A stretch of 64,000 nt of DNA from Solibacillus sp. FSL H8-0538 (GCF_038003525.1 NZ_JBBOPI010000001.1:2223001-2287000), one strand, 5' to 3'. Positions 22,909-46,129 are shown, counted from the stretch's first letter. A program made the numbers and translations. Notes: a model not told the origin generated them from the sequence alone.

Positions 22909-23700
22909 TTAACTCGCTACCATTTCAATGCGTATTTTATCCGCAATCATCGCAATGAACTCTGAATTCGTGGGTTTTGATTTTAAGTGGTGCACGGTAT
23001 AGCCGAACATCTCTGAAATCGATTCGTAGTTGCCACGGTTCCATGCGACTTCAATGGCATGGCGAATGGCACGTTCGACGCGGGATGGTGTTGTGTTAAA
23101 TTTCTTGGCGATTTCTGGATATAAAATTTTTGTTACAGAGCCCAAAAGTTCAATATCATAATAGACCATCTGAATGGCTTCACGTAAGTAAGAGTAGCCT
23201 TTAATATGTGCTGGCACACCAATTTCTTTAATTATAGCTGTAATTGTCGTATCTAACTGACGTTGGTCCAATTTTTGCGAAACTTGTGGTTGCAACACAC
23301 TTTTACGCTTTTCGCCATCGCCCCTTTGTCCTGCGCAATGTAGAATTTTTTGAACAAGTTGATCAAACTCGAACGGCTTGAGCATAAAATACGAAGCCCC
23401 AAAATTCACCGCTTGCTTCATTACATCCTCTTGACCAAATGCCGTTAGCATAATAACTTGCGTATTCATATGGCGTTCGTCATTATACATAGCCTCAAGA
23501 ACCGCTAGTCCATCCAAGTGCGGCATAATAATATCTAGGAGAAGTACGTCCAATTGATGTTCCTCTAACATTTTAATGCATATTTTACCATTCGAAGCAG
23601 TAGCTACTACTTCAATTTCTGGATGGTTTTGAAAATACAGCTCCATTGTTTTCACTAGTTCACGATTGTCATCAGCAATCGCTATTTTTACTTTCGTCAA
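22909..23700 (-). CDS. spo0A: Stage 0 sporulation protein A, master response regulator
   Basis: The protein has 263 residues. The receiver domain has the acidic pair in IADDN, phospho-acceptor Asp56 in LLLDIIMP, and the conserved Lys in FMLKPFEF. After a linker rich in Gln and Lys comes the Spo0A C-terminal DNA-binding domain, with [18 protein letters not shown] and the near-invariant recognition stretch [11 protein letters not shown]. It controls entry into sporulation through the phosphorelay. The start is TTG 23700, about 8 nt after AAGGGGGAA. The gene order spoIVB-spo0A is the classic Bacillales one, and 0A-box-like sites lie upstream. Confidence 0.98.
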
Positions 23701-23777
23701 AAATATTCCCCCTTTTTATTCTAATACTTCAAATTTCTTCTACACTCCAAATGTGTCCATTTGACATAGTTTTGATA

Positions 23778-23958: not shown

Positions 23959-24891
23959 TTAATTAGGCGTTTTTTTCAGCATTTCGATGATCAGTATCCC
24001 CGCGCCTTTTGTCGGTTCTTCAACATACATATGTGTTACTGCCCCGACAAATTGACCATTTTGAACAATTGGGCTCCCACTCATCCCTTGTAAAATGCCT
24101 CCCGTTTTTTCGAGTAATTCCCGGTCAGTTACTTTAAATTGGATAAGACTTCCTTCTATTTTATCTATTTCGATATCAAATGCGCGGACATCATTTCCTT
24201 CTATTGCTGTAAACAATTCAGCTGCGCCCAATTTCAAATCTTTTTCGTGTATAATTTTCATTGGACGTTGCACACTGTGTTGTAACTCTTGCTCCCAGTA
24301 GCCGAAAATGCCGTATACATCATTCTTCAAAATGCTACCTAGCCGCGCTGCTGATTTATCAACGACTGAAACCTTATAACCTGGTTGACCTGGTGTGCTT
24401 TTCTTAAGTTGTGTAATGGACGCTAAATAAATGGCTCCATTCCTAAATGACGGCGGCTGTTTTAATGTTGAGTCGATAATTTGATGCCCTAAAGCGCCGT
24501 ATTCCTTTGACTCCGGATCAATAAATGTTAAAGTACCGATGCCATCTGTTTCATCCTTTAAAAACGGTAATAAATTATTGACTTCTTCCTTAGATAATTC
24601 AAACGTTCGCTCCTTATTATTGTGCTCAATTGTTAATTGAATTGATTGTTGCTGTTTTTGTAAAACGGCAAGCTTTGAAAGCTTTTGACCATTCAGCTCA
24701 GTAACCATATCCCCCTGCTTCAACCATTGACCATCTGGCAAAAGCACGTCATGGGAAATATATACAAATGGTAGCTGTAGTTGAATACCTATCGATTGTC
24801 CCATTGGAATGAGCTGTCTCGCATAAATATTCGATGGTGCCAACATGACAAACACTACAATGAATAAAAAATTACGCAAATGGCACTTCAT
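23959..24891 (-). CDS. spoIVB: SpoIVB serine peptidase (S55), short form
   Basis: SpoIVB is secreted from the forespore and triggers sigma-K activation by cleaving SpoIVFA. This protein has 310 residues: membrane anchor 8-24, PDZ domain about 28-100, and the S55 peptidase domain. The catalytic residues are His136 (GALGHQI), Asp256 and Ser271 (GMSGSP), with spacing like the B. subtilis enzyme. B. subtilis SpoIVB is about 426 residues. The difference lies mainly before the PDZ domain, where its self-cleavage sites are, so that linker is nearly absent here. The start is supported by GGAGGAGGTG. Confidence 0.92.
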   Translation of the reverse strand: MKCHLRNFLFIVVFVMLAPSNIYARQLIPMGQSIGIQLQLPFVYISHDVLLPDGQWLKQGDMVTELNGQKLSKLAVLQKQQQSIQLTIEHNNKERTFELSKEEVNNLLPFLKDETDGIGTLTFIDPESKEYGALGHQIIDSTLKQPPSFRNGAIYLASITQLKKSTPGQPGYKVSVVDKSAARLGSILKNDVYGIFGYWEQELQHSVQRPMKIIHEKDLKLGAAELFTAIEGNDVRAFDIEIDKIEGSLIQFKVTDRELLEKTGGILQGMSGSPIVQNGQFVGAVTHMYVEEPTKGAGILIIEMLKKTPN

Positions 24892-24976
24892 ACGTCACCT
24901 CCTCCGTTTCGTTTCGCTTACTATGTGGAATTTTGACGGAGTTATGAACGGAAAATATTTGTCGTTTAAACAATAA

Positions 24977-34306: not shown

Positions 34307-35797
<1,491 letters not shown>

Positions 35798-35813
35798 TCA
35801 ATCCCCTCCTAGC

Positions 35814-37448
35814 TCAGGCTTTTTTCGCATTAGCCAATGCCTCTTGTAATTGTATTGTATGCAGTACTTTTTGCTCAACTGTCCATTCAAACAGCGTGCT
35901 CATTTCATCAATAACAGCTTCTTTATGCTCCTCTACAAAGGCAATGTTGAAAAATAACGCACCCGTTCGTCGAATAAAGAAGTCTACTGGCTTGGCAACT
36001 GCTTCATAAAAAATACTGTAATAAAGCAGTCCGTAAATAACTGGGGGAAGCGAGCCCTTTGCCTGCTTCATATAGGCATACACTTTGTTCACATTTGTTC
36101 CATAGTGACGAGCAAGCTGTTCAGTTTCTTCAACCGATAACCCAAGCTTTACGCCATTGCCAATTTGCGCCTGCACATAATGATCGAAAAACTTCGATCC
36201 ACTAACATCCCCACCTGAAATCGATAAATGCTTTGTTATACAAGATGTAGACTTTTTCCCGAATTCATTTTGGAGCTGCTTGCATAGTAAGTCAACAATT
36301 TTTTCTGCCATTTTACGGTAACCAGTCAATTTCCCACCTGCAATTGTTATCAGGCCATTTTTCGATTGCCATATTTCATTTTTCCTCGAAATTTCAGACG
36401 GACTTTTGCCATCCACGTGAATAAGTGGACGCACTCCTGCCCAGCCAGATTCTATCTTCAGCCCTTTACTAGCAAGAGACGGGAACATAAAATAAATGGC
36501 ATCAAGCAAATACACGCGCTCCTCTGCCGTAATGTGCATATCCTTTGGGTCCCCTTCATAAAATGTATCCGTCGTGCCTACATACGTTTTGCCGTCACGC
36601 GGGATCGCGAAAACCATACGTCCATCTTGTGTATTAAAGTAAATCGCCTGTTTTAACGGGAAAACCTCTTGGTCAAAAACAAGATGCACACCTTTTGATA
36701 AAATTAACTGTTTTTCAGTCAGCTCTCCAGCCAGTTTGCGCACTTCATCTACCCAGGGACCTGCTGCATTCACTACCTTTTTGGCCTTCACCTTATACGT
36801 TTCACCTGTCAGCTGATCTTCTAACGTTACAGTGAAGGTAAAATTATTGCTACGAATGCTAATTGCTTTTGTGTAATTAAGTGCTATCGCTCCTCGTTCA
36901 GCCGCCGCTTTTATCACCTCAATCGTTAATCGCGCGTCATCTGTTCGGTATTCGACGTACAAACCCCCACCGAGTAAATCTTCTTTTTTTACGAGTGGTT
37001 CACACTTCGCTGTGTCATCCGCTGACAGCATAAAACGACGCTCACTCTTTTTCACACCTGCTAGGATGTCATATATTATTAACCCTAGTGCCGTAAAAAA
37101 CGGACCAAATGTACCTCCTTTATAAAACGGCAGTAGCATTCTTACTGGCGTTGTGACGTGCGGACCATTTTCATATACAATCGCTCGCTCACGTCCAAGC
37201 TCTACCACTTCTTTTATTTGTAGCTGTTTTAAATATCGTAGTCCGCCGTGCACAAGTTTAGTGGAACGACTAGATGTACCTTCTGCAAAATCCTGCATTT
37301 CTACGAGCCCAACTGTTAATCCGCGCGTTACCGCATCGAGTGCAATGCCGACTCCGGTAATACCACCGCCGATAATAAGTAAATCTAGTACACCCTCTTT
37401 TAGCGACTGAGTCATTGGCTCCCTGTCAAATGCTGAAAATGTTTTCAC
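35814..37448 (-). CDS. glpD: Aerobic glycerol-3-phosphate dehydrogenase
   Basis: The protein has 544 residues and is a membrane-associated FAD enzyme. It oxidises glycerol 3-phosphate to dihydroxyacetone phosphate and feeds electrons to quinone. The FAD site LLIIGGGITGVGIALDAVTRGLTVGLVE is N-terminal, followed by EGTSSRSTKLVHGGLRYL and later FDVxP-like YVGTTDTFYEGDP; the C-terminal domain is the alpha-glycerophosphate oxidase type. The order glpD-glpK is reversed relative to B. subtilis (glpFK-glpD). It could use glycerol 3-phosphate from the GDPD enzyme at 20 kb. Confidence 0.95.
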   Translation of the reverse strand: MKTFSAFDREPMTQSLKEGVLDLLIIGGGITGVGIALDAVTRGLTVGLVEMQDFAEGTSSRSTKLVHGGLRYLKQLQIKEVVELGRERAIVYENGPHVTTPVRMLLPFYKGGTFGPFFTALGLIIYDILAGVKKSERRFMLSADDTAKCEPLVKKEDLLGGGLYVEYRTDDARLTIEVIKAAAERGAIALNYTKAISIRSNNFTFTVTLEDQLTGETYKVKAKKVVNAAGPWVDEVRKLAGELTEKQLILSKGVHLVFDQEVFPLKQAIYFNTQDGRMVFAIPRDGKTYVGTTDTFYEGDPKDMHITAEERVYLLDAIYFMFPSLASKGLKIESGWAGVRPLIHVDGKSPSEISRKNEIWQSKNGLITIAGGKLTGYRKMAEKIVDLLCKQLQNEFGKKSTSCITKHLSISGGDVSGSKFFDHYVQAQIGNGVKLGLSVEETEQLARHYGTNVNKVYAYMKQAKGSLPPVIYGLLYYSIFYEAVAKPVDFFIRRTGALFFNIAFVEEHKEAVIDEMSTLFEWTVEQKVLHTIQLQEALANAKKA

Positions 37449-38178: not shown

Positions 38179-39543
38179 TTATGCTTTTACAGCTGTATTT
38201 AAAATGTCGTTCTCTTCCAGGAATTTCGTATTGAATTTCGCTGATTTAAAGACATCGTTGTTCATTAATGCTTGGTGGAATGGAATTGTTGTGTTAATAC
38301 CAGGTCCAGCTACTTCAAACTCACTAAGCGCACGATTCATTTTTGCGATTGCTTCTTCACGTGTATCTGCATGCACGATCAGCTTCGCTACCATTGAATC
38401 GTAGTATGGTGGAATTGTGTAACCTGCATAAACCGCAGAGTCAATACGTACACCGTAACCACCAGGAACTACATACGTTTCTACCGTACCAGCTGAAGGC
38501 ATGAAGTTTTTATAAGCGTTTTCAGCGTTAATACGGCACTCCATTGCCCAACCATTAATTTTAATATCTTCTTGAGCGAATGGTAATTTCTCACCAGACG
38601 CGATTTTTAATTGTTGTTGCACAAGGTCAACGCCTGTAATCATTTCTGTTACTGGGTGCTCTACTTGAATTCGTGTGTTCATTTCCATGAAGTAGAAACG
38701 ATCTTCCTGGTAATCGTAAATGAACTCGATTGTACCAGCGCCTTCGTAGTTACAAGCTTGTGCTGCTTTCACTGCCGCCGCGCCCATTTCCGCACGACGC
38801 TCTGGGCTTAGTGCTGGAGATGGTGCTTCTTCAACAAGTTTTTGCATACGGCGTTGTACCGTACAGTCACGCTCACCTAAATGAACAACATTGCCATGAC
38901 CATCAGCAAGAACTTGGATTTCACAGTGACGGAAGTACTCGATGAATTTTTCTAAATACACACCAGGGTTGCCAAATGCCGCAGCTGCCTCTTTTTGTGT
39001 AATATCGATGCCTTTTACAAGGTCTTCTTCAGTGCGCGCGACACGGATCCCTTTACCGCCACCACCAGCTGTTGCTTTAATGATAACTGGGTAACCGATT
39101 TTCGCTGCCCATTCTTTACCTGTTTCGATATTAGGAACAATGCCTGTACCTGGAACTAAAGGTACATTTGCTGCTTCCATTGTGTCACGAGCTACATCTT
39201 TAATCCCCATGATTTTGATCGCATCAGATGATGGACCGATAAATTTAATACCTGCATTTTCACAAGCCTCAGCAAATGCTGCGTTTTCAGCTAAGAAGCC
39301 GTAACCAGGGTGAATGCCGTCAACACCTGTTTTTTGTGCAACACCTAACACAGCCGGGAAACTCAAGTAAGAGTCTTTTGATAATTTAGGACCGATGCAA
39401 TATGCTTCGTCCGCTAATTTCACGTGTAATCCTTCTGCGTCCGCTTCTGAATATACTGCTACAGTTTGGATACCTAGTTCTTTACAAGCACGAATAATAC
39501 GTACTGCAATTTCACCACGGTTTGCAATTAATACTTTTTTCAT
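38179..39543 (-). CDS. accC: Acetyl-CoA carboxylase, biotin carboxylase subunit
   Basis: The protein has 454 residues with an ATP-grasp fold. KKVLIANRGEIAVRIIRACKELG starts the biotin carboxylase N-domain, the ATP-binding GGGGKGIRVA is at about 165, then the catalytic region FMEMNTRIQVEHPVTE. It carboxylates the biotin on AccB for fatty acid synthesis. The start is ATG 39543 with AAGGGGTG 9 nt upstream; an in-frame GTG within that site is rejected. As the only biotin carboxylase here, it might also serve PccB (inference). Confidence 0.95.
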   Translation of the reverse strand: MKKVLIANRGEIAVRIIRACKELGIQTVAVYSEADAEGLHVKLADEAYCIGPKLSKDSYLSFPAVLGVAQKTGVDGIHPGYGFLAENAAFAEACENAGIKFIGPSSDAIKIMGIKDVARDTMEAANVPLVPGTGIVPNIETGKEWAAKIGYPVIIKATAGGGGKGIRVARTEEDLVKGIDITQKEAAAAFGNPGVYLEKFIEYFRHCEIQVLADGHGNVVHLGERDCTVQRRMQKLVEEAPSPALSPERRAEMGAAAVKAAQACNYEGAGTIEFIYDYQEDRFYFMEMNTRIQVEHPVTEMITGVDLVQQQLKIASGEKLPFAQEDIKINGWAMECRINAENAYKNFMPSAGTVETYVVPGGYGVRIDSAVYAGYTIPPYYDSMVAKLIVHADTREEAIAKMNRALSEFEVAGPGINTTIPFHQALMNNDVFKSAKFNTKFLEENDILNTAVKA

Positions 39544-39558
39544 TGTTGTAAGCACCCC

Positions 39559-40047
39559 TTACTCAGCTTTTACTAGGAATAATGGTTGACCATATTCTAC
39601 TAGTTGGCCATCTTTCACAAGTACTTCAACGATTTCCCCTTTGATTTCAGCTTCAATCTCGTTGAATAATTTCATTGCTTCAACGATACATACGATCGAT
39701 TCGTCGCCCACTTTATCGCCAACTTGAACGAATACTGGTGAATCTGGGTTTGGAGCTGCATAGAAAGTTCCTACCATTGGTGATGTGATTTTATGTAGTG
39801 ATGCATCTTCAGCTACAGGTACTGCTGGTGCCACCTCTACTTTAACTGGTGCCGCAACTACTGGAGCTGTTGGAGCCGCTTGTTGTACTACAGGTGCAAT
39901 AACTTCTTTTTTCGGTGCTACAACTTCAGTTGCTCCGCCGTTCTTTTTAAGTTTAACTTTAGCGCCGTCTGCTTCGTATACGAACTCGTCTATTGAAGAA
40001 GCATCTACTAATTTAATAATTTCACGAATTTCTTGGATTTTGAACAT
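39559..40047 (-). CDS. accB: Biotin carboxyl carrier protein of acetyl-CoA carboxylase
   Basis: The protein has 162 residues. The N-terminal part (about 1-35) is followed by a flexible Ala/Pro/Val-rich linker (about 45-80) and the biotinyl domain. The biotin lysine is Lys126 in EAMKL, and the thumb loop is seen in [15 protein letters not shown]. It carries carboxybiotin between AccC and the carboxyltransferase. It lies 15 nt before accC in one operon. Confidence 0.96.
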
Positions 40048-40245: not shown

Positions 40246-40782
40246 TTAATACATGGATTGAATATCCACCGATACTTGAATTTTTTCATCTAATTCCGAT
40301 TTGACGAGATAAACAATTTCATTCGCCTGCTCTTTTGACATTTCATCTGACATAACCGTTACGGCTACCTTTTCTTCCTCGATACGGACCAATGCATCTG
40401 TATAGCCAACGGACTTGATGAGCATTTCTAACATAGCTTCCGAAGATTCTGTCTTAATGAGTGCGTCCATTTCATTAAATGCTTCACTTTTTTCTTCAGC
40501 TGTGTGTTGCTCTGACGCAATTTTTTGTGTTAGTTGTTCGCGTAATTGACTACGTTTGTTGCTTAACTCTAGGCGCATCTCTTGGAACAGATCGCTTTCA
40601 GAGTTAACCGTTGTTGTCTGTTCATCATCAACACCGAAAATTTGTGTTTCATTAAGTGTGTCATCTGTAAAGATCGTTAAAATGTTTGCTCCGCGATCCA
40701 CTTCAAATACATAATACACAGAAATTACAGCTACTAAACTAAATAATGTTAGTAACCAAACTGTTTTTTTCTTCACCTTCAT
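40246..40782 (-). CDS. spoIIIAH: Stage III sporulation protein AH
   Basis: The protein has 178 residues (about 218 in B. subtilis). One membrane helix near residue 8-26 (VWLLTLFSLVAVISVYYVF) is followed by a long Glu/Gln-rich helical region. The YscJ/EscJ-like C-terminal domain (DALVRIEEEKVAVTVMS...VYLVKSELDEKIQVSVDIQ) comes last. SpoIIIAH in the mother cell binds forespore SpoIIQ across the septum to form the feeding channel. The start overlaps the spoIIIAG stop by 4 nt. Confidence 0.88.
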   Translation of the reverse strand: MKVKKKTVWLLTLFSLVAVISVYYVFEVDRGANILTIFTDDTLNETQIFGVDDEQTTTVNSESDLFQEMRLELSNKRSQLREQLTQKIASEQHTAEEKSEAFNEMDALIKTESSEAMLEMLIKSVGYTDALVRIEEEKVAVTVMSDEMSKEQANEIVYLVKSELDEKIQVSVDIQSMY

Positions 40783-41180
40783 GATTTGTCCTCCTTTTTT
40801 TGCATCGGTACAATGACAATTCGGTGTTGCGGTAATTGCATTACACTACTCACACTGTCTTTCAGTAATTGTTTAATCGCTGGATTTGATGCGCCTTCCG
40901 CGACAATTAATACACCCGTAATCCCTGCTTCGCCTCCTGCAGAACGAAAATAGTTACTCAGCATAAACTGTTCCTCGCCCACTAACTCTCCGTAATGAAA
41001 ATAGACCGTTACTTGTCCCACCTGATGAATTTCCTGTAACACCTGTGCCAATTGTTGCTCCGATGTTACGCTACCTGCTTGACTATCAGATGATGTTGAT
41101 GTCCACATACTATAAGCTATGACCACAATCATTACAGCTAGAATTAAAAGAAGAGGACGACCTGCTCGCTTCTTTTCCAC
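40779..41180 (-). CDS. spoIIIAG: Stage III sporulation protein AG, short form
   Basis: The protein has 133 residues from GTG 41180, against about 229 in B. subtilis. A basic start (VEKKRAGRP) precedes one membrane helix (LLLILAVMIVVIAYSMW). The ring-building domain is reduced: QVTVYFHYGELV..., then AGITGVLIVAEGASNPAIKQLLKDSVSSVMQLPQHRIVIVPM, the conserved C-terminal part. The frame is open further upstream (from a stop near 41225) but has no ATG/GTG/TTG, and the ribosome site GGAAGGGGG lies 16 nt away. The start is therefore uncertain. Confidence 0.8.
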   Translation of the reverse strand: MEKKRAGRPLLLILAVMIVVIAYSMWTSTSSDSQAGSVTSEQQLAQVLQEIHQVGQVTVYFHYGELVGEEQFMLSNYFRSAGGEAGITGVLIVAEGASNPAIKQLLKDSVSSVMQLPQHRIVIVPMQKKEDKS

Positions 41181-41244: not shown

Positions 41245-41379
41245 TTATGCGAAAGTATTTAGCACGAGCCCGTATAAGGTTAGAAACAACGCAAGCTTCA
41301 CATACACAATGAACTCTTTTTCATCTGCTAACACTAGTAGACAGCTCCCAAGTAAAATTAGCATCATTATTAACTTCAA
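41245..41379 (-). CDS. spoIIIAF: Vestigial SpoIIIAF-like membrane peptide
   Basis: It has 44 residues starting at TTG 41379, which overlaps the spoIIIAE stop (TTGA). It is preceded by GGGGGTGGG. Two short membrane helices (LIMMLILLGSCLLVL and VKLALFLTLYGLVLN) separated by ADEKEF resemble the N-terminal membrane hairpin of SpoIIIAF, which is about 206 residues in B. subtilis. The soluble C-terminal domain is missing. The name rests on position and topology only. Confidence 0.5.
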   Translation of the reverse strand: MKLIMMLILLGSCLLVLADEKEFIVYVKLALFLTLYGLVLNTFA

Positions 41380-42287
41380 TAGCTCTTGCCCACCCCCAGT
41401 TGAATAATAATCACACAAATCAAGACAATAAAGACTATTGCAAAGCCTAGTAAAAACCCAATCGCGCAAAGTACAAACAGCGTTTTCCCAACATCATCAA
41501 AAAGCCCGCTTATTCTTCCATTTGTAAATGGTTCTGTCAGTGCACCGAGTAGTTTAAATGTTAATGCATGAATTAACAGCGTACCTGCTGGATAAAAGGC
41601 CGCTGCCCAAACTGCAGACAAAAATGAAAGGCCAAAAATTGTCGTTGCCGTTGATTGGTATTTATTAAACAGTGAGAAGCCTTCTACAATAAGTCCACCA
41701 ATCAGCGGAATATTTTGCTCAATTAATTTTTTTATAGGGGATTTAATGGCATCATTTAATTGAAAAAAAGCAATTCCTGAAAAGGACAAAATGGCAGTTA
41801 ACGCAAGGACAGATGCGATTACCATACTCAATACAGACGCACGGAGTAGATCGCTGGCCTTCGAAAAAGAAATAGCTGGTAAAATACGCGTTGCACCATC
41901 TAAAAAAAGTGCAATAAGTAGCGCGGGTATCAATACTTTTGTACATATAAATAACAATAACTGCATCACCGATAGCACAATTGGATTCCATGCTAGTAAG
42001 GAAAAGACAGCTTGTACAGCAAGAAGCATCGTTGACAAAATGGGCATGAGCGCTGCAAAAAATCCTTGTAGCACTGTAATCAACTGCCCCATTACAACAA
42101 ATGCCTCAACAATCCTTTCCGCAAATGTAGCAATGAAAATCAGGATAAACAGCTGTTCAAGCAACTTTTGCTCATCAGGTAAAAACGCTTGTAAGATGAG
42201 AAAGAGAAGCACATACAAAACTGCTAGAACAATGGCAAATAGCGCGGATGATAAAGGCGCTGCAAAAATGGTTGTTAGCTGCGTCAT
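41376..42287 (-). CDS. spoIIIAE: Stage III sporulation protein AE, N-terminally short
   Basis: The protein has 303 residues from ATG 42287 (or 310 from TTG 42308). It is a polytopic membrane protein with about eight helices. The family core ILQGFFAALMPILSTML, LIEQNIPLIGGLIVEGFSLF and AAAFYPAGTLLIHAL is present. B. subtilis SpoIIIAE is about 400 residues with a signal peptide and an extracytoplasmic N-terminal segment, and about 90 residues of that are absent. It overlaps or abuts spoIIIAD. It is thought to be part of the mother-cell feeding-channel base. Confidence 0.88.
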   Translation of the reverse strand: MTQLTTIFAAPLSSALFAIVLAVLYVLLFLILQAFLPDEQKLLEQLFILIFIATFAERIVEAFVVMGQLITVLQGFFAALMPILSTMLLAVQAVFSLLAWNPIVLSVMQLLLFICTKVLIPALLIALFLDGATRILPAISFSKASDLLRASVLSMVIASVLALTAILSFSGIAFFQLNDAIKSPIKKLIEQNIPLIGGLIVEGFSLFNKYQSTATTIFGLSFLSAVWAAAFYPAGTLLIHALTFKLLGALTEPFTNGRISGLFDDVGKTLFVLCAIGFLLGFAIVFIVLICVIIIQLGVGKSY

Positions 42288-42291
42288 AGCA

Positions 42292-42669
42292 TCACTGTAG
42301 CCTTTCAAACAATGACATTAACTGCCGGAATACCGGCGTAAGCTGTAGTAACCAAAACGACAACAACGTGATACGAACAGAAGTTTTCACGAGCTCAGCA
42401 ATGGCATCGTAATCCTGCTCTTCAAATAGCATTGAAAAGTGTTGTCCAAGTAGAAGCAGGAGTGCGGTAAAAATTAATTCTGTCCCATATGGAAGATCGG
42501 TAATTAGCTGCTGTAGCCCTGTTAAAAATGGGATAAGCTGCTGTAACACAACAGCTTGAAATAAGATGAAAAAGAAAATTACCATTAGGAGCGGGTGAAG
42601 CTTGCCAACAGATTCTTTTAATAGCATTAGCAACAATAGAAAGATGACGGCAAAAAAAAGGAAAATCAT
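42292..42669 (-). CDS. spoIIIAD: Stage III sporulation protein AD
   Basis: The protein has 125 residues with three to four membrane helices (FLFFAVIFLLLLMLL, PLLMVIFFFILFQAVVL and ELIFTALLLLLGQHFSMLF). It matches the SpoIIIAC/AD family in length and order. Its ATG follows the spoIIIAC stop without a gap. Sequence is diverged; position between AC and AE gives most of the confidence. Confidence 0.8.
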   Translation of the reverse strand: MIFLFFAVIFLLLLMLLKESVGKLHPLLMVIFFFILFQAVVLQQLIPFLTGLQQLITDLPYGTELIFTALLLLLGQHFSMLFEEQDYDAIAELVKTSVRITLLSFWLLQLTPVFRQLMSLFERLQ

Positions 42670-42879
42670 TTAACTAGACGCGGTAAGCCATTGAAAAAAC
42701 ACTAGAATTTCCCCAAAAAACAAGCGTAAAAATCGAATCAGCTCTGCCGTCATATAGAGATACGCTATAAAAAAGAGAAAGAAGGAAAATTCTTTTTTTC
42801 CTGTTTGTTCAAAAAAAACATGTAGGAGTGCAATAACCAGTCCAACCCCCGCTACCCGTAGCACATCTTGCAGTTCCAC
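42670..42879 (-). CDS. spoIIIAC: Stage III sporulation protein AC
   Basis: The protein has 69 residues with two membrane helices (VAGVGLVIALLHVFF and FSFFLFFIAYLYMTAELI). The length matches SpoIIIAC (68 residues in B. subtilis), and EQTGKKEF is the family loop. The start is GTG 42879 after AAAGGGGGG. It is now the first gene of the operon: spoIIIAA and spoIIIAB, normally upstream, are not here. Instead repeat B1 begins about 80 nt upstream. CATATATT (minus strand, 42906-42913) resembles a sigma-E -10 box, but no -35 was found. Confidence 0.82.
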   Translation of the reverse strand: MELQDVLRVAGVGLVIALLHVFFEQTGKKEFSFFLFFIAYLYMTAELIRFLRLFFGEILVFFQWLTASS

Positions 42880-42960
42880 AAGCAGTGCCCCCCTTTCCGT
42901 ACGCTAATATATGCAGTAGTGGCTTTTTTCAGCACTTGAAACTTCATACGTTCACGTAAG

Positions 42961-43085
42961 AAAAGCGCATTCGCGCCCGTTTGCACGCGGGCAAGCTGCT
43001 TGCGAGCCCGAAGCGAAAGTAAACGCCCCACCACTTTCGCCGAGGGATCGAAGCGACCTCGAGCGTGCGGCGCTAATGCCTAGAC
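42961..43085 (+). repeat. Family B GC-rich palindromic repeat, copy B1
   Basis: It shares with copy B2, in the same orientation, GAGCCCGAAG, CGAGGGATCGAAGCGACC, TCGAG, GGCGCT and CCTAGAC. Nested inverted repeats (GCGCCCG...CGGGC, GAAAGT...ACTTTC, GAGG...CCTC) could form a large multi-arm structure. GC content is far above the surroundings. Similar elements are common in Bacillaceae genomes, from general knowledge. Confidence 0.8.
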
Positions 43086-43091
43086 ATTATC

Positions 43092-43200
43092 AAAAAGTTA
43101 TACTTTCTTATCGTGTTAGAAAGACACAACTCGCCCAAAATAGGGCGAGTTGATGTCCTTACTTATGTGGATGGGAAAGTTATACTTTCTTATCCACTAA
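43092..43200 (+). repeat. Family A interspersed repeat, copy A5 (best preserved)
   Basis: Hairpin 1 (43123-43157) pairs GACACAACTCGCCC with GGGCGAGTTGATGTC. Hairpin 2 (43167-43197) pairs GTGGATGGGAAAGT with ACTTTCTTATCCAC, with two G-T wobbles, around TAT. An extra partial hairpin 2 right side (AAGTTATACTTTCTTATC) stands just upstream at 43095, like a half-duplicated unit. Confidence 0.85.
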
Positions 43201-43283
43201 AAAAGAGTAGGCAATTGCCTGCTCTTTGTATAAATCGAATACTCATTATTGGACAATTAACTCCCCTCACTCACTTTCCTATT

Positions 43284-43292
43284 TGCTATAAT
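43284..43292 (+). promoter_or_regulatory. Extended -10 promoter of the PCYCGC lipoprotein gene
   Basis: TGCTATAAT is an extended -10 element (TGnTATAAT), 25 nt before the start codon. No good -35 is present at the usual distance. Confidence 0.5.
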
Positions 43293-43316
43293 AACGATGA
43301 ATGGAGTGATAAAACG

Positions 43317-43802
43317 ATGAAGAAATTTTCAATAACGGTGATTTTACTCTTGGTACTAAGTGCATGTGGGCAGGAAACTGTAACTCACCAACATGAAGAG
43401 AAAGAAGCTGTACAAAGCCATGTTTCTGGCGATATTCAAGAAGTAACAACAGGCCCAGAAATTTTGCCTAGCTTTTTAGACGATAAGAATGAAACAATAC
43501 GCCTGTCGTATCAAGTAGCAGCAAATTATTCAGATGTATTAGAATGGGTGCCTTGTTACTGTGGCTGTGGGGATTCTGTAGGACACCGCAATAATTTAAA
43601 TTGCTTTATTCAGGAACGTCACGCGGACGGCACTATTACATGGGATGATCATGGAACACGTTGCAATGTATGCATAGAAATAGCCATACAAGCTGCTCAA
43701 ATGTCAAAAGACGGCGTAGAGTTGAAAGACATTCGTGAAAAAATTGATTCAATGTACAAAGAGGGCTATGCAACGCCAACTAATACTGAAATGCCCGCAT
43801 AA
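43317..43802 (+). CDS. PCYCGC-motif lipoprotein
   Basis: The protein has 161 residues. A lipoprotein signal peptide (KKFSITVILLLVLSAC, lipobox LSAC, lipidated Cys about residue 16-17) is followed by a short His/Glu-rich linker. The domain has PCYCGCGDSVGHRNNLNCF, then CNVCIEIAIQA, with five to six conserved cysteines that could bind metal or form disulfides. The family's role is not established. The start is ATG 43317 after ATGGAGTGAT; the same frame stays open back through repeat A5, but that extension is rejected. It is bracketed by direct repeats B1 and B2, with its own promoter and terminator. Confidence 0.85.
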   Translation: MKKFSITVILLLVLSACGQETVTHQHEEKEAVQSHVSGDIQEVTTGPEILPSFLDDKNETIRLSYQVAANYSDVLEWVPCYCGCGDSVGHRNNLNCFIQERHADGTITWDDHGTRCNVCIEIAIQAAQMSKDGVELKDIREKIDSMYKEGYATPTNTEMPA

Positions 43803-43805
43803 GAA

Positions 43806-43927
43806 CAAAAGCGCTAAAGCGCCTGCTTAGCCCCGACAAGCGCTGGAGAGCCCGAAGTGAAGGCACTCTCTTCGCCTTCACCCGAGGGATCGAAGCGACC
43901 TCGAGGGGCTGGCGCTTTAGCCTAGAC
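43806..43927 (+). repeat. Family B GC-rich palindromic repeat, copy B2
   Basis: The outer pairing joins GCTAAAGCGCC to GGCGCTTTAGC. Inner arms pair AGCCCC with GGGGCT, GTGAAGG with CCTTCAC, and GAGG with CCTC. It ends CCTAGAC like B1. It begins four bases after the lipoprotein stop codon. Confidence 0.85.
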
Positions 43928-43993
43928 GTAGCATTTACTTTTTTGAAAGTTATCCACATGGCGAAAATATATAATTTCCTTAACAAAAATAAG

Positions 43994-44028
43994 GCATGTG
44001 AACGTTCGCTGCAACGTCGTTCACATGC
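43994..44028 (+). terminator. Terminator of the lipoprotein gene
   Basis: GCATGTGAACG and CGTTCACATGC pair perfectly, followed by TTTTT, downstream of repeat B2. Confidence 0.8.
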
Positions 44029-44148
44029 TTTTTAAATCTTCTAATAGAAGAACATTACTATATAGCTCGTATACTCTTCTAAGATCAATTCGCCTCCTCC
44101 CTTACCTATAAACCATAGCTACCCTATATCTCGTTGTTAATAAACGAA

Positions 44149-44173
44149 AAAAACCGACAAACTTTGCCGGTTT
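44149..44173 (-). terminator. Terminator of the nitronate monooxygenase-like gene
   Basis: On the minus strand AAACCGGCAAAG and TTTGTCGGTTT pair (one mismatch) with a T-run after. Confidence 0.7.
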
Positions 44174-44189
44174 CTTTTGGGACATGAAG

Positions 44190-45200
44190 TTATATCTTTG
44201 CTAGTAAAGTATCGACAATTTCTTGTACAGAAGCTTCTTTTGCCATAAAGCTGTTTTCACCCATCCATAATGATAAATATTCTGAACGATTTTGCTTTAC
44301 ACTTTCCTGGCGAATTTTTATCGTTAAGTAATGCTGGATGGGGTAAGGTGCGACGATGGCATCTTTCAAATCCTCAGTGAATTTATTTTTTAATCCACGT
44401 GCATATTTCCCAGAAAATGCTTTCGTTAAGGTCGTGTCCTTTTCATGTGACTGTAAAATCGCGTTTTTATGTAGTTCACTTGCTTTACATTCAGTCGCCG
44501 TAAGAAGCGCCGTCCCGATTTGAACCGTAGACGCACCATGTTGAAGCATCGTTTGCATATGCGCTGTCGTCATAATACCGCCAGCTGCAATAATAGGTAA
44601 TGAAACTTTTGGTACTACTTGCCTTAATAGCTCTTCTATCGAGAAAAGCTCGATATCCTCTGTAAATGAACCGCGATGTCCACCCGCCTCACTACCTTGC
44701 AAAACAATGGCATCAAGCCCTGCAGTCTCAACGGCAATAGCCTCTTGCAAAGTGGTCGCCGTCCCAATTAAATATGTCCCATTTCCTTTTAATCGCTCAA
44801 TAATATCCGCAGATGGCAAACCAAATGTAAACGAACAAATTGGTACTTGTTCATCAATTACTGCTTGAACTTGTCCATCAAAGACATTATTCGAAACAAC
44901 GCGCTGTAAATTGCTAATACCAAGCTCCTCATAAATTGGCTGTAATGCCGTTCTCGCCTGCTGCAAAACAGAGATATCAATCTTTGGTTCATCTTGAATA
45001 AATAAATTGACACTAAACGGTTTATCGGTAAGTGCCTTTACTTGTTGGATAAAAGATTTTGTTTCCTCACCGTTTAAGTAGCCTGCACCAATTGAACCTA
45101 AAATACCTGCCTCACAACAAGCAGCCACAAAATTTGGTGACGTAATCCCTGCCATTGGTGCTTGAATGATTGGTTTTTTAATTGCAAATTGTTTTAACAT
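44190..45200 (-). CDS. Nitronate monooxygenase / FabK-like FMN enzyme
   Basis: The protein has 336 residues and is a TIM-barrel of the 2-nitropropane dioxygenase family. Seen are IIQAPMAGITSPNFVAACCEAGILGSIGAG at the N-terminus, FTFGLPSADII, the FMN phosphate site GSEAGGHRGSF, and IAAGGIMT...GASTVQIGTALLTATE. These enzymes oxidise alkyl nitronates; FabK relatives reduce enoyl-ACP, so the exact reaction is open. The start is ATG 45200, 8 nt after AAGGGGTG. It occupies, with the lipoprotein, the place of spoIIIAA/AB and yqhV in the B. subtilis order. Confidence 0.8.
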   Translation of the reverse strand: MLKQFAIKKPIIQAPMAGITSPNFVAACCEAGILGSIGAGYLNGEETKSFIQQVKALTDKPFSVNLFIQDEPKIDISVLQQARTALQPIYEELGISNLQRVVSNNVFDGQVQAVIDEQVPICSFTFGLPSADIIERLKGNGTYLIGTATTLQEAIAVETAGLDAIVLQGSEAGGHRGSFTEDIELFSIEELLRQVVPKVSLPIIAAGGIMTTAHMQTMLQHGASTVQIGTALLTATECKASELHKNAILQSHEKDTTLTKAFSGKYARGLKNKFTEDLKDAIVAPYPIQHYLTIKIRQESVKQNRSEYLSLWMGENSFMAKEASVQEIVDTLLAKI

Positions 45201-45529
45201 CTCCATCACCCCTTACATAAATTGTAAGTTATTCCGCCGTATTTAGCCACTAAATGTTGTATTTTCAATATAAAACACTCATTTAAAATATGGCTCTACA
45301 CCAAAATCTGTACTTGACAGCACATTGCACTCCAGGCGGACGCTTTCCGTTCCATGTGCTTATAAAGTTGTACACTTTCTTTTAAAGTAAAGCACATGTT
45401 TTGGTAAGACCCTAAAATATATTAGAGGAAATTCAACTAAATTAACGGTTTTGTAGTTGGCTTCCGCAAATTAGAAAGACACATCTAAATAAATTAGTGT
45501 GAGACGACATCCTTACTTACGTAGATAAA
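45201..45529. other. Gap between efp and the nitronate monooxygenase-like gene
   Basis: It contains CCAAAATCTGTACTTGAC and CTCCAGGCGGACGCTTTCCG (about 45298-45349), a decayed GC-rich repeat of a type frequent in related genomes. A stem CATGTGCTT / AAAGCACATG (45353-45402) and repeat A6 follow. No gene seen. Confidence 0.5.
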
Positions 45530-45568: not shown

Positions 45569-46129
45569 TTATTGTGCACGTGATACGTACGAAGAGTCAG
45601 TTGTGTTGATGATTAATTTATCACCTTGGTTAATGAAGAATGGTACTTGTACAGACAGACCAGTTTCAAGGATTGCTGGTTTCGTACCACCTGAAGCTGT
45701 ATCCCCTTTAATACCTGGTTCCGTTTCTGCAACTTCAAGCACTACAGTATTTGGTAATTCTACACCTAGCATTTCACCTTGGAAAGACTGGATGTGTATT
45801 TCCATGTTTTCTTGTAAGAATTTTAATTCGTATTCGATTTGAACTGCAGCAAGTTCAGTTTGCTCATAAGATTCTAAATCCATGAATACATGCTCGTCAC
45901 CTTGTGCATATAGATATTGCATTTTACGGTTGTCGATTTGTGCTTTTTCTACTTTCTCACCAGCGCGGAAAGTTTTTTCTTGTACGTTACCATTACGTAG
46001 GTTACGTAATTTAGAACGTACGAATGCAGCGCCTTTACCTGGTTTTACGTGTTGGAAATCCATAACGCGGTATAATTGGCCATCAACAATAATTGTTAGA
46101 CCAGTACGGAAATCGTTTACTGAGATCAT
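45569..46129 (-). CDS. efp: Elongation factor P
   Basis: The protein has 186 residues with three beta-barrel domains. [41 protein letters not shown] has the tip loop at GKGAA, whose lysine (about 32) is the site modified in EF-P proteins. It relieves ribosome stalling at proline runs. The ribosome site GGAGGAATAACAC precedes the ATG. It lies 17 nt after the upstream peptidase gene. Confidence 0.97.

Follow-up and report, generated by a model that had tools for sequence, protein, structure and literature searches.

A reduced spoIIIA operon without spoIIIAA and spoIIIAB in spore-forming Planococcaceae

We found that the spoIIIA operon of Solibacillus sp. FSL H8-0538 starts at spoIIIAC and contains neither spoIIIAA nor spoIIIAB, and that the loss of these two genes is a Planococcaceae-wide trait. 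What the locus encodes is probably a SpoIIIA-SpoIIQ (A-Q) complex that is reduced yet functional, that has been inherited by the spore-forming members of the family, and that would operate without a dedicated ATPase. The window analyzed here is a stretch of 64,000 nt (C1:2223001-2287000) from a genome of 3.93 Mb, assembled in two contigs and 99.96% complete. The operon lies on the (−) strand of the window, from AC (42879) to AH (40246), and is followed by accB-accC. Profiles, synteny, and a whole-genome search agree with the initial annotation of this DNA, which had described AC to AH as present and both AA and AB as absent at the locus.

Profile searches for SpoIIIAA and SpoIIIAB were run on the whole genome, with B. 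subtilis as a positive control that gave a match. Neither protein was found above cut-off; the SpoIIIAA profile (TIGR02858) gave two weak matches (E = 1.6e-5 and 9.9e-4), which their sequences identify as Rho and ComGA. With 150 relatives included, SpoIIIAA and SpoIIIAB above cut-off were each found in 0 of 151 Planococcaceae genomes, while SpoIIIAE is kept in 114 of them. Outgroups were drawn at the class level; an order-level sample gave only Planococcaceae. Specifically, among 200 genomes sampled across the class, 135 from outside the family bear AE and every one of them has SpoIIIAA, compared with none of the 11 AE-bearing members of the family. The proposal that AA and AB had simply moved is, therefore, refuted at profile sensitivity for this genome and its 150 relatives, and a plain operon split with both genes relocated elsewhere in the genome retains next to no probability.

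Two sets of loci were compared, namely 40 Planococcaceae loci from a dozen or so genera and 77 named loci from a SpoIIIAE genome scan, the latter covering Solibacillus, Ureibacillus, Lysinibacillus, Metasolibacillus, Rummeliibacillus, Viridibacillus, Sporosarcina, Psychrobacillus, Bhargavaea, and a few others. The gene set proved identical across the 77 named loci, except for one short contig ending before AC and AD, and the closest genus by SpoIIIAE identity was g14 (Solibacillus), at 59–62%. Because the arrangement without AA and AB recurs in the 40 family loci and on the 77 named contigs, an assembly error at 42.9 kb, which had been raised as a way to explain the gap, is excluded. Two records in the collection deserve mention on their own account: a contig titled Arthrobacter beigongshangensis strain REN13 (L201) carries a Sporosarcina-type spoIIIA operon and is probably mislabelled, and a single metagenome bin (RH52_bin.043) holds two different spoIIIA operons (L170 and L189) and is most likely mixed.

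The interval upstream of the operon has the layout first assigned to it. Proceeding toward spoIIIAC, it comprises efp (45569..46129, (−) strand), a nitronate monooxygenase (NMO)-like gene (44190..45209, (−) strand; PF03060, 4e-87, and synteny), repeat B2 (43801..43927, (+) strand), a PCYCGC-motif lipoprotein gene (43317..43802, (+) strand; PF13798, 2.8e-60), an A-type repeat pair (AAAGTTATACTTTCTTATC twice; 43094..43206, (+) strand), and repeat B1 (42958..43085, (+) strand). By synteny across the 40 family loci, efp directly adjoins spoIIIAC in most genera, leaving no room for AA or AB. The NMO gene separates the two in several genera related to Solibacillus, which form a subclade, and the PCYCGC gene with its repeats is present at the spoIIIA locus only in this genome (0 of 39 relatives). 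Since efp adjoins AC in most genera, the NMO and PCYCGC insertions came later than the loss of AA and AB. The idea that the repeat-bounded cassette took the place of the two genes is thus not supported: the cassette does sit at the AA/AB position, between B1 and B2, but relatives without it, in which efp or the NMO gene abuts AC, lack AA and AB as well. Displacement of both genes by the cassette in this strain is, accordingly, extremely improbable; the operon without AA and AB is general, the cassette is a later insertion beside it, and the loss is neither local nor caused by the cassette. As to the repeats themselves, B1 and B2 match at 85% over 46 nt, and the B repeat core (GAGGGATCGAAGCGACCTC) occurs in 21 copies in the genome (reversed control, 0). 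All 10 copies at 0.23–1.95 Mb of C1 lie on the (−) strand and all 11 copies at 2.27–3.72 Mb on the (+) strand, so that the B element, roughly 150 nt long, seems to follow the direction of replication, like elements inserted on one replication strand.

The membrane core of a B. subtilis-type A-Q complex, formed by AC, AD, and AE, is present at the locus. spoIIIAC (42670..42879, (−) strand; 69 aa), with which the operon now begins, matches TIGR02848 (5.8e-6) and PF06686 (3.5e-4), and its comparison with outgroup AC reaches 98% in hhalign. spoIIIAD (42292..42669, (−) strand; 125 aa), identified by synteny and profile-profile comparison, has no match in the Pfam and NCBIfam profile libraries, and the same is true of AF. 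A family profile detects AD in 38 of the 40 family loci and also recognizes outgroup AD, at 3.7e-7 to 1.8e-3; comparison with outgroup AD gives 93.8% in hhalign, and the gene occurs in 76 of the 77 named loci, the exception being the short contig. On this basis, spoIIIAD is judged to be present, diverged beyond the library profiles. The spoIIIAE core (41376..42308, (−) strand; 310 aa) is recognized by PF09546 (7.4e-19), and its TIGR02829 match starts only at profile position 104. Outgroup AE carries a signal peptide followed by an extracytoplasmic stretch at its N-terminus, whereas Planococcaceae AE aligns with it only over the membrane core (hhalign, 99.6%) and lacks both of these N-terminal parts. 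Consistent with such a truncation, the span from the AC stop to the AE stop, a measure that is independent of start-codon choice, is 1242–1390 nt in Planococcaceae versus 1543–1943 nt in outgroups. A structure model of AE (pLDDT 74.7) returned no meaningful match in the PDB. At the other end of the operon, spoIIIAH (40246..40782, (−) strand; 178 aa; PF12685, 6.2e-26) is the best conserved among the exposed parts, with a profile that matches 3uz0/3tuf at 1e-29. The accC and accB genes (38179..40047, (−) strand) form the conserved downstream flank by synteny. Further along, at 34310-37448, glpK-like and glpD-like genes lie between folD and an asp23-like gene, within the normally conserved acc-nusB-folD neighborhood.

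Further reduction is apparent in AF and AG. In Planococcaceae, AF is a conserved small ORF of about 45–60 residues with two hydrophobic helices; here, it occupies 41245..41379 on the (−) strand and would encode about 44 aa with two TM helices from a putative TTG start. An alignment of these short proteins matches the N-terminal TM hairpin of full-length SpoIIIAF at 90.7% in hhalign, and one single family AF matches the outgroup profile at an E-value of 0.0016. Because single AF sequences are short and hydrophobic, their homology rests on profile comparison and synteny. By profile-profile comparison, the ring-building domain of SpoIIIAF is missing and only the N-terminal TM hairpin is left; AF is, as first annotated, present at the locus, but as a two-TM remnant rather than a full SpoIIIAF. 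spoIIIAG (40779..41180, (−) strand; 133 aa; TIGR02830, 3.5e-13) has lost a different part. The family AG profile, placed on the solved 30-mer ring (5wc3), matches positions 42–85 and 129–178 and skips 86–128. An AlphaFold model of AG (mean pLDDT 78.7) shows an alpha-beta-beta-alpha-beta arrangement with a loose, low-confidence loop at the insertion site, and its PDB neighbors are the ring domains of PrgK, SpoIIIAG, and FliF, all at modest E-values. Profile and model together indicate that AG has retained its ring-building domain but not the barrel-forming insertion known from B. subtilis. This insertion makes up most of the cup of the B. subtilis ring (PMC6934232), and that ring has a unique cylindrical beta-barrel (PMC8092281). 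The stop-to-stop span from AE to AG, which holds both AF and AG, measures 518–742 nt in the 40 family loci and 524–904 nt in the 77 named loci, compared with 994–1492 nt in 18 outgroup loci.

Individual loci add to the picture of AG. L156 (G226, family f6), an outgroup with SpoIIIAA, also seems to have an AG without the barrel insertion, which suggests a second, independent loss. L152 (G331, family f38), the closest outgroup by AC and AH score, has SpoIIIAA, an AF ORF of ring-domain length, and a long AG insertion, making it a candidate for the state before reduction. In L194 and L104 (Rummeliibacillus sp. POC4), the C-terminus of AG is altered, longer, and runs into AH, suggesting a frameshift near the end of the gene.

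With AA and AB gone, the operon appears to start at spoIIIAC behind a sigma-E-like promoter. A sigma-E-like −10 box (CATATATT; 42906..42913, (−) strand) lies upstream of AC. The form CATANNNT, which is that of the −10 of sigma-E promoters, occurs in the 60 nt preceding AC at 39 of the 40 family loci versus 4.8% of background windows, and in many family loci, a −35 of the type TCATATT or GTCTATT is found 13–14 nt further upstream. In the window itself, the −10 is present and the −35 is degenerate. The full sigma-E consensus scores weakly per locus (mean p = 0.21), and only the positional test of the −10 across loci is informative; the promoter is best regarded as a motif of the family with a weak −35 here.

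We found that all six genes of the operon are under purifying selection. Specifically, median dN/dS values from pairwise comparisons between close species were 0.02 for AC, 0.06 for AD, 0.03 for AE, 0.11 for AF, 0.13 for AG, and 0.04 for AH, and the reading frames are intact in the named loci with rare exceptions. The presence of the operon also tracks that of SASP genes, which occur in 114 of 114 AE-bearing Planococcaceae genomes; genomes without SASP genes have no AE. The only three SASP-positive genomes without AE all belong to genus g2. In this genus (G001, G037, and G053, with L072 in G019), one SASP gene is kept and AE is undetected in three of four genomes, while in the fourth (L072, G019), the operon is the most diverged of all and AD escapes detection. 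Sporulation in g2 may be decaying, or the complex may have been reduced further.

The genome analyzed here also carries much of the surrounding sporulation machinery. Within the window, spo0A (22912..23715, (−) strand) was identified by sequence and spoIVB (23962..24894, (−) strand), between recN and spo0A, by sequence and position. Outside it, consecutive genes encode SpoIID, SpoIIQ, and SpoIIID, and the genome further has four SASP genes as well as a SpoIVFA/SpoIVFB-like pair. SpoIIQ matches NF053738 at 7e-51, which is below the curated cut-off, and its gene sits between spoIID and spoIIID; the SpoIIIAH and SpoIIQ pair is thus present. SpoIIM above cut-off was found in 0 of 151 Planococcaceae genomes, and GerM (PF10646) had no match in this genome. 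Weak GerM matches elsewhere in the family were mostly proteins of about 400 residues and were not taken as GerM. The initial annotation had offered, as its second explanation, that this lineage no longer completes engulfed-forespore development in the usual way. That holds insofar as the loss is real, family-wide, found in reported spore formers, and accompanied by further reduction of AE, AF, and AG; sporulation as such, however, looks retained, judging from spo0A, spoIVB, the SpoIID-SpoIIQ-SpoIIID genes, the SpoIVFA/FB-like pair, and the SASP genes.

The reduced complex can be pictured as follows. An ancestor of the family lost the ATPase SpoIIIAA together with SpoIIIAB, as the distribution of both shows, and an ancestral change may have made the ATPase and its partner AB dispensable. 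Trimming has removed the N-terminal extracytoplasmic domain of AE, the ring-building domain of AF, and the barrel insertion of AG, with SpoIIM and, in this genome, GerM missing too. What remains is the AC-AD-AE membrane core, the AF hairpin, the ring-type domains of AG and AH, and SpoIIQ. We infer that this core links the forespore to the mother cell and sustains it up to the point at which sigma-G takes effect. No dedicated traffic ATPase would hydrolyze ATP for it, and the core would serve as a conduit or anchor of a passive kind, not as a secretion system driven by ATP. Whether sporulating Planococcaceae maintain the forespore with such an ATP-independent minimal A-Q complex (an AC-AD-AE-miniAF core, bare AG and AH ring-building domains, and SpoIIQ) is, in our estimate, an evenly balanced question. 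Walker mutants of AA and null mutants of AB are nearly spore-negative in B. subtilis (PMC2703783; PMC12720343), and ATP independence would, therefore, need compensation elsewhere.

One way in which ATP could still be used is through another ATPase acting in trans, e.g., the type II-like ComGA, with ComGB standing in for SpoIIIAB, or an unrelated protein. In this genome, no traffic ATPase comes closer than ComGA, whose gene lies just beyond the window edge, and the joint loss of AA and AB fits a swap to a ComGA/ComGB-type pair. However, ComGA-like competence ATPases are general in Bacilli, including species with AA, and the one found here belongs to a competence operon of its own. Moreover, the search showed no duplicate specific to the family (the TIGR02858 matches in this genome being only Rho and ComGA), and the trimming of AE, AF, and AG favors simplification over an exchange of parts; we consider this explanation unlikely.

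Changes in what the complex does have also been weighed. SpoIIIA could now be confined to anchoring SpoIIQ at the septum or acting as its zipper there, with forespore feeding or sigma-G control taking another route. The conservation of AH, the retention of SpoIIQ, and the absence of the ring domain from AF and of the barrel insertion from AG would all suit such a role, but the membrane core proteins AC and AE, which a pure AH-Q anchor would not need, are the most constrained, and this makes the proposal rather improbable. A reading of the operon as a relic, decaying while the lineage loses sporulation, is very doubtful. Several Planococcaceae genera lack both AE and SASP genes, and genus g2, with its SASP-positive genomes without detectable AE and its one highly diverged operon, would fit decay. 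Against this stand the strong purifying selection on all six genes, the intact frames, the same operon across the sampled genera with a conserved promoter motif, and the reports of spore-forming members in PMC7924749. As a reading for the whole family, the relic was rejected on the basis of dN/dS and the co-occurrence with SASP genes.

The nature of the A-Q complex has been debated for considerably more than ten years, the options being a secretion machine powered by ATP, a feeding tube that works passively, and a mechanical link. In the large natural group of spore formers described here, SpoIIIAA and its partner in the membrane are gone, as are the ring domain of AF and the barrel insertion of AG, while the rest is under strong selection. 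This natural deletion series would mark AC, AD, AE, the AF hairpin, the AG and AH domains, and SpoIIQ as the indispensable parts. If the reduced complex works as proposed, ATPase-driven secretion is not the essential function of the A-Q complex, and the AE core is.

The loss itself has been described before. According to PMC7924749, AA, AB, SpoIIM, and GerM are lost in spore-forming Planococcaceae and Lysinibacillus, and its authors note that the mechanism has yet to be elucidated; Galperin and colleagues, in their 2012 study (PMC3533761), saw the loss in L. sphaericus C3-41 but dismissed that genome as unreliable. Both sources report members of the family that form spores. Our results agree with the pattern in these texts as regards the absence of AA, AB, SpoIIM, and GerM in spore formers. 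Unlike PMC7924749, in which every member is scored as lacking SpoIIIAF and five as lacking SpoIIIAD, we found AF as a mini-protein and AD in a diverged form, which corrects the published scoring of both as lost in Planococcaceae. The available portions of the two papers make no mention of the AE and AG truncations, the hairpin AF, or the promoter at the operon start, and other earlier descriptions are possible; the form of what remains of the complex, i.e., the reduction of AE, AF, and AG, appears to be new.

Compared with the SpoIIIA-SpoIIQ "feeding tube" of B. subtilis, the Planococcaceae locus shares the AC-AD-AE-AF-AG-AH order before accB-accC, AH and SpoIIQ, and the ring-building domain of AG, together with a putative sigma-E-type promoter that is seen as a motif across the family and has a poor −35 in this window. 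It differs in having no SpoIIIAA ATPase and no SpoIIIAB, in a GerM that is unmatched in this genome, and in an AE without its N-terminal domain, an AF reduced to a TM hairpin, and an AG devoid of the barrel insertion. C. difficile depends less on ATP hydrolysis by SpoIIIAA than B. subtilis does (PMC6934232), but it keeps the spoIIIAA gene. Among proteins with ring-building motifs, the alpha-beta-beta-alpha-beta fold of the AG model matches SpoIIIAG (5wc3), PrgK, and FliF, whereas Planococcaceae AG lacks the vertical beta-collar insertion that SpoIIIAG and FliF possess.
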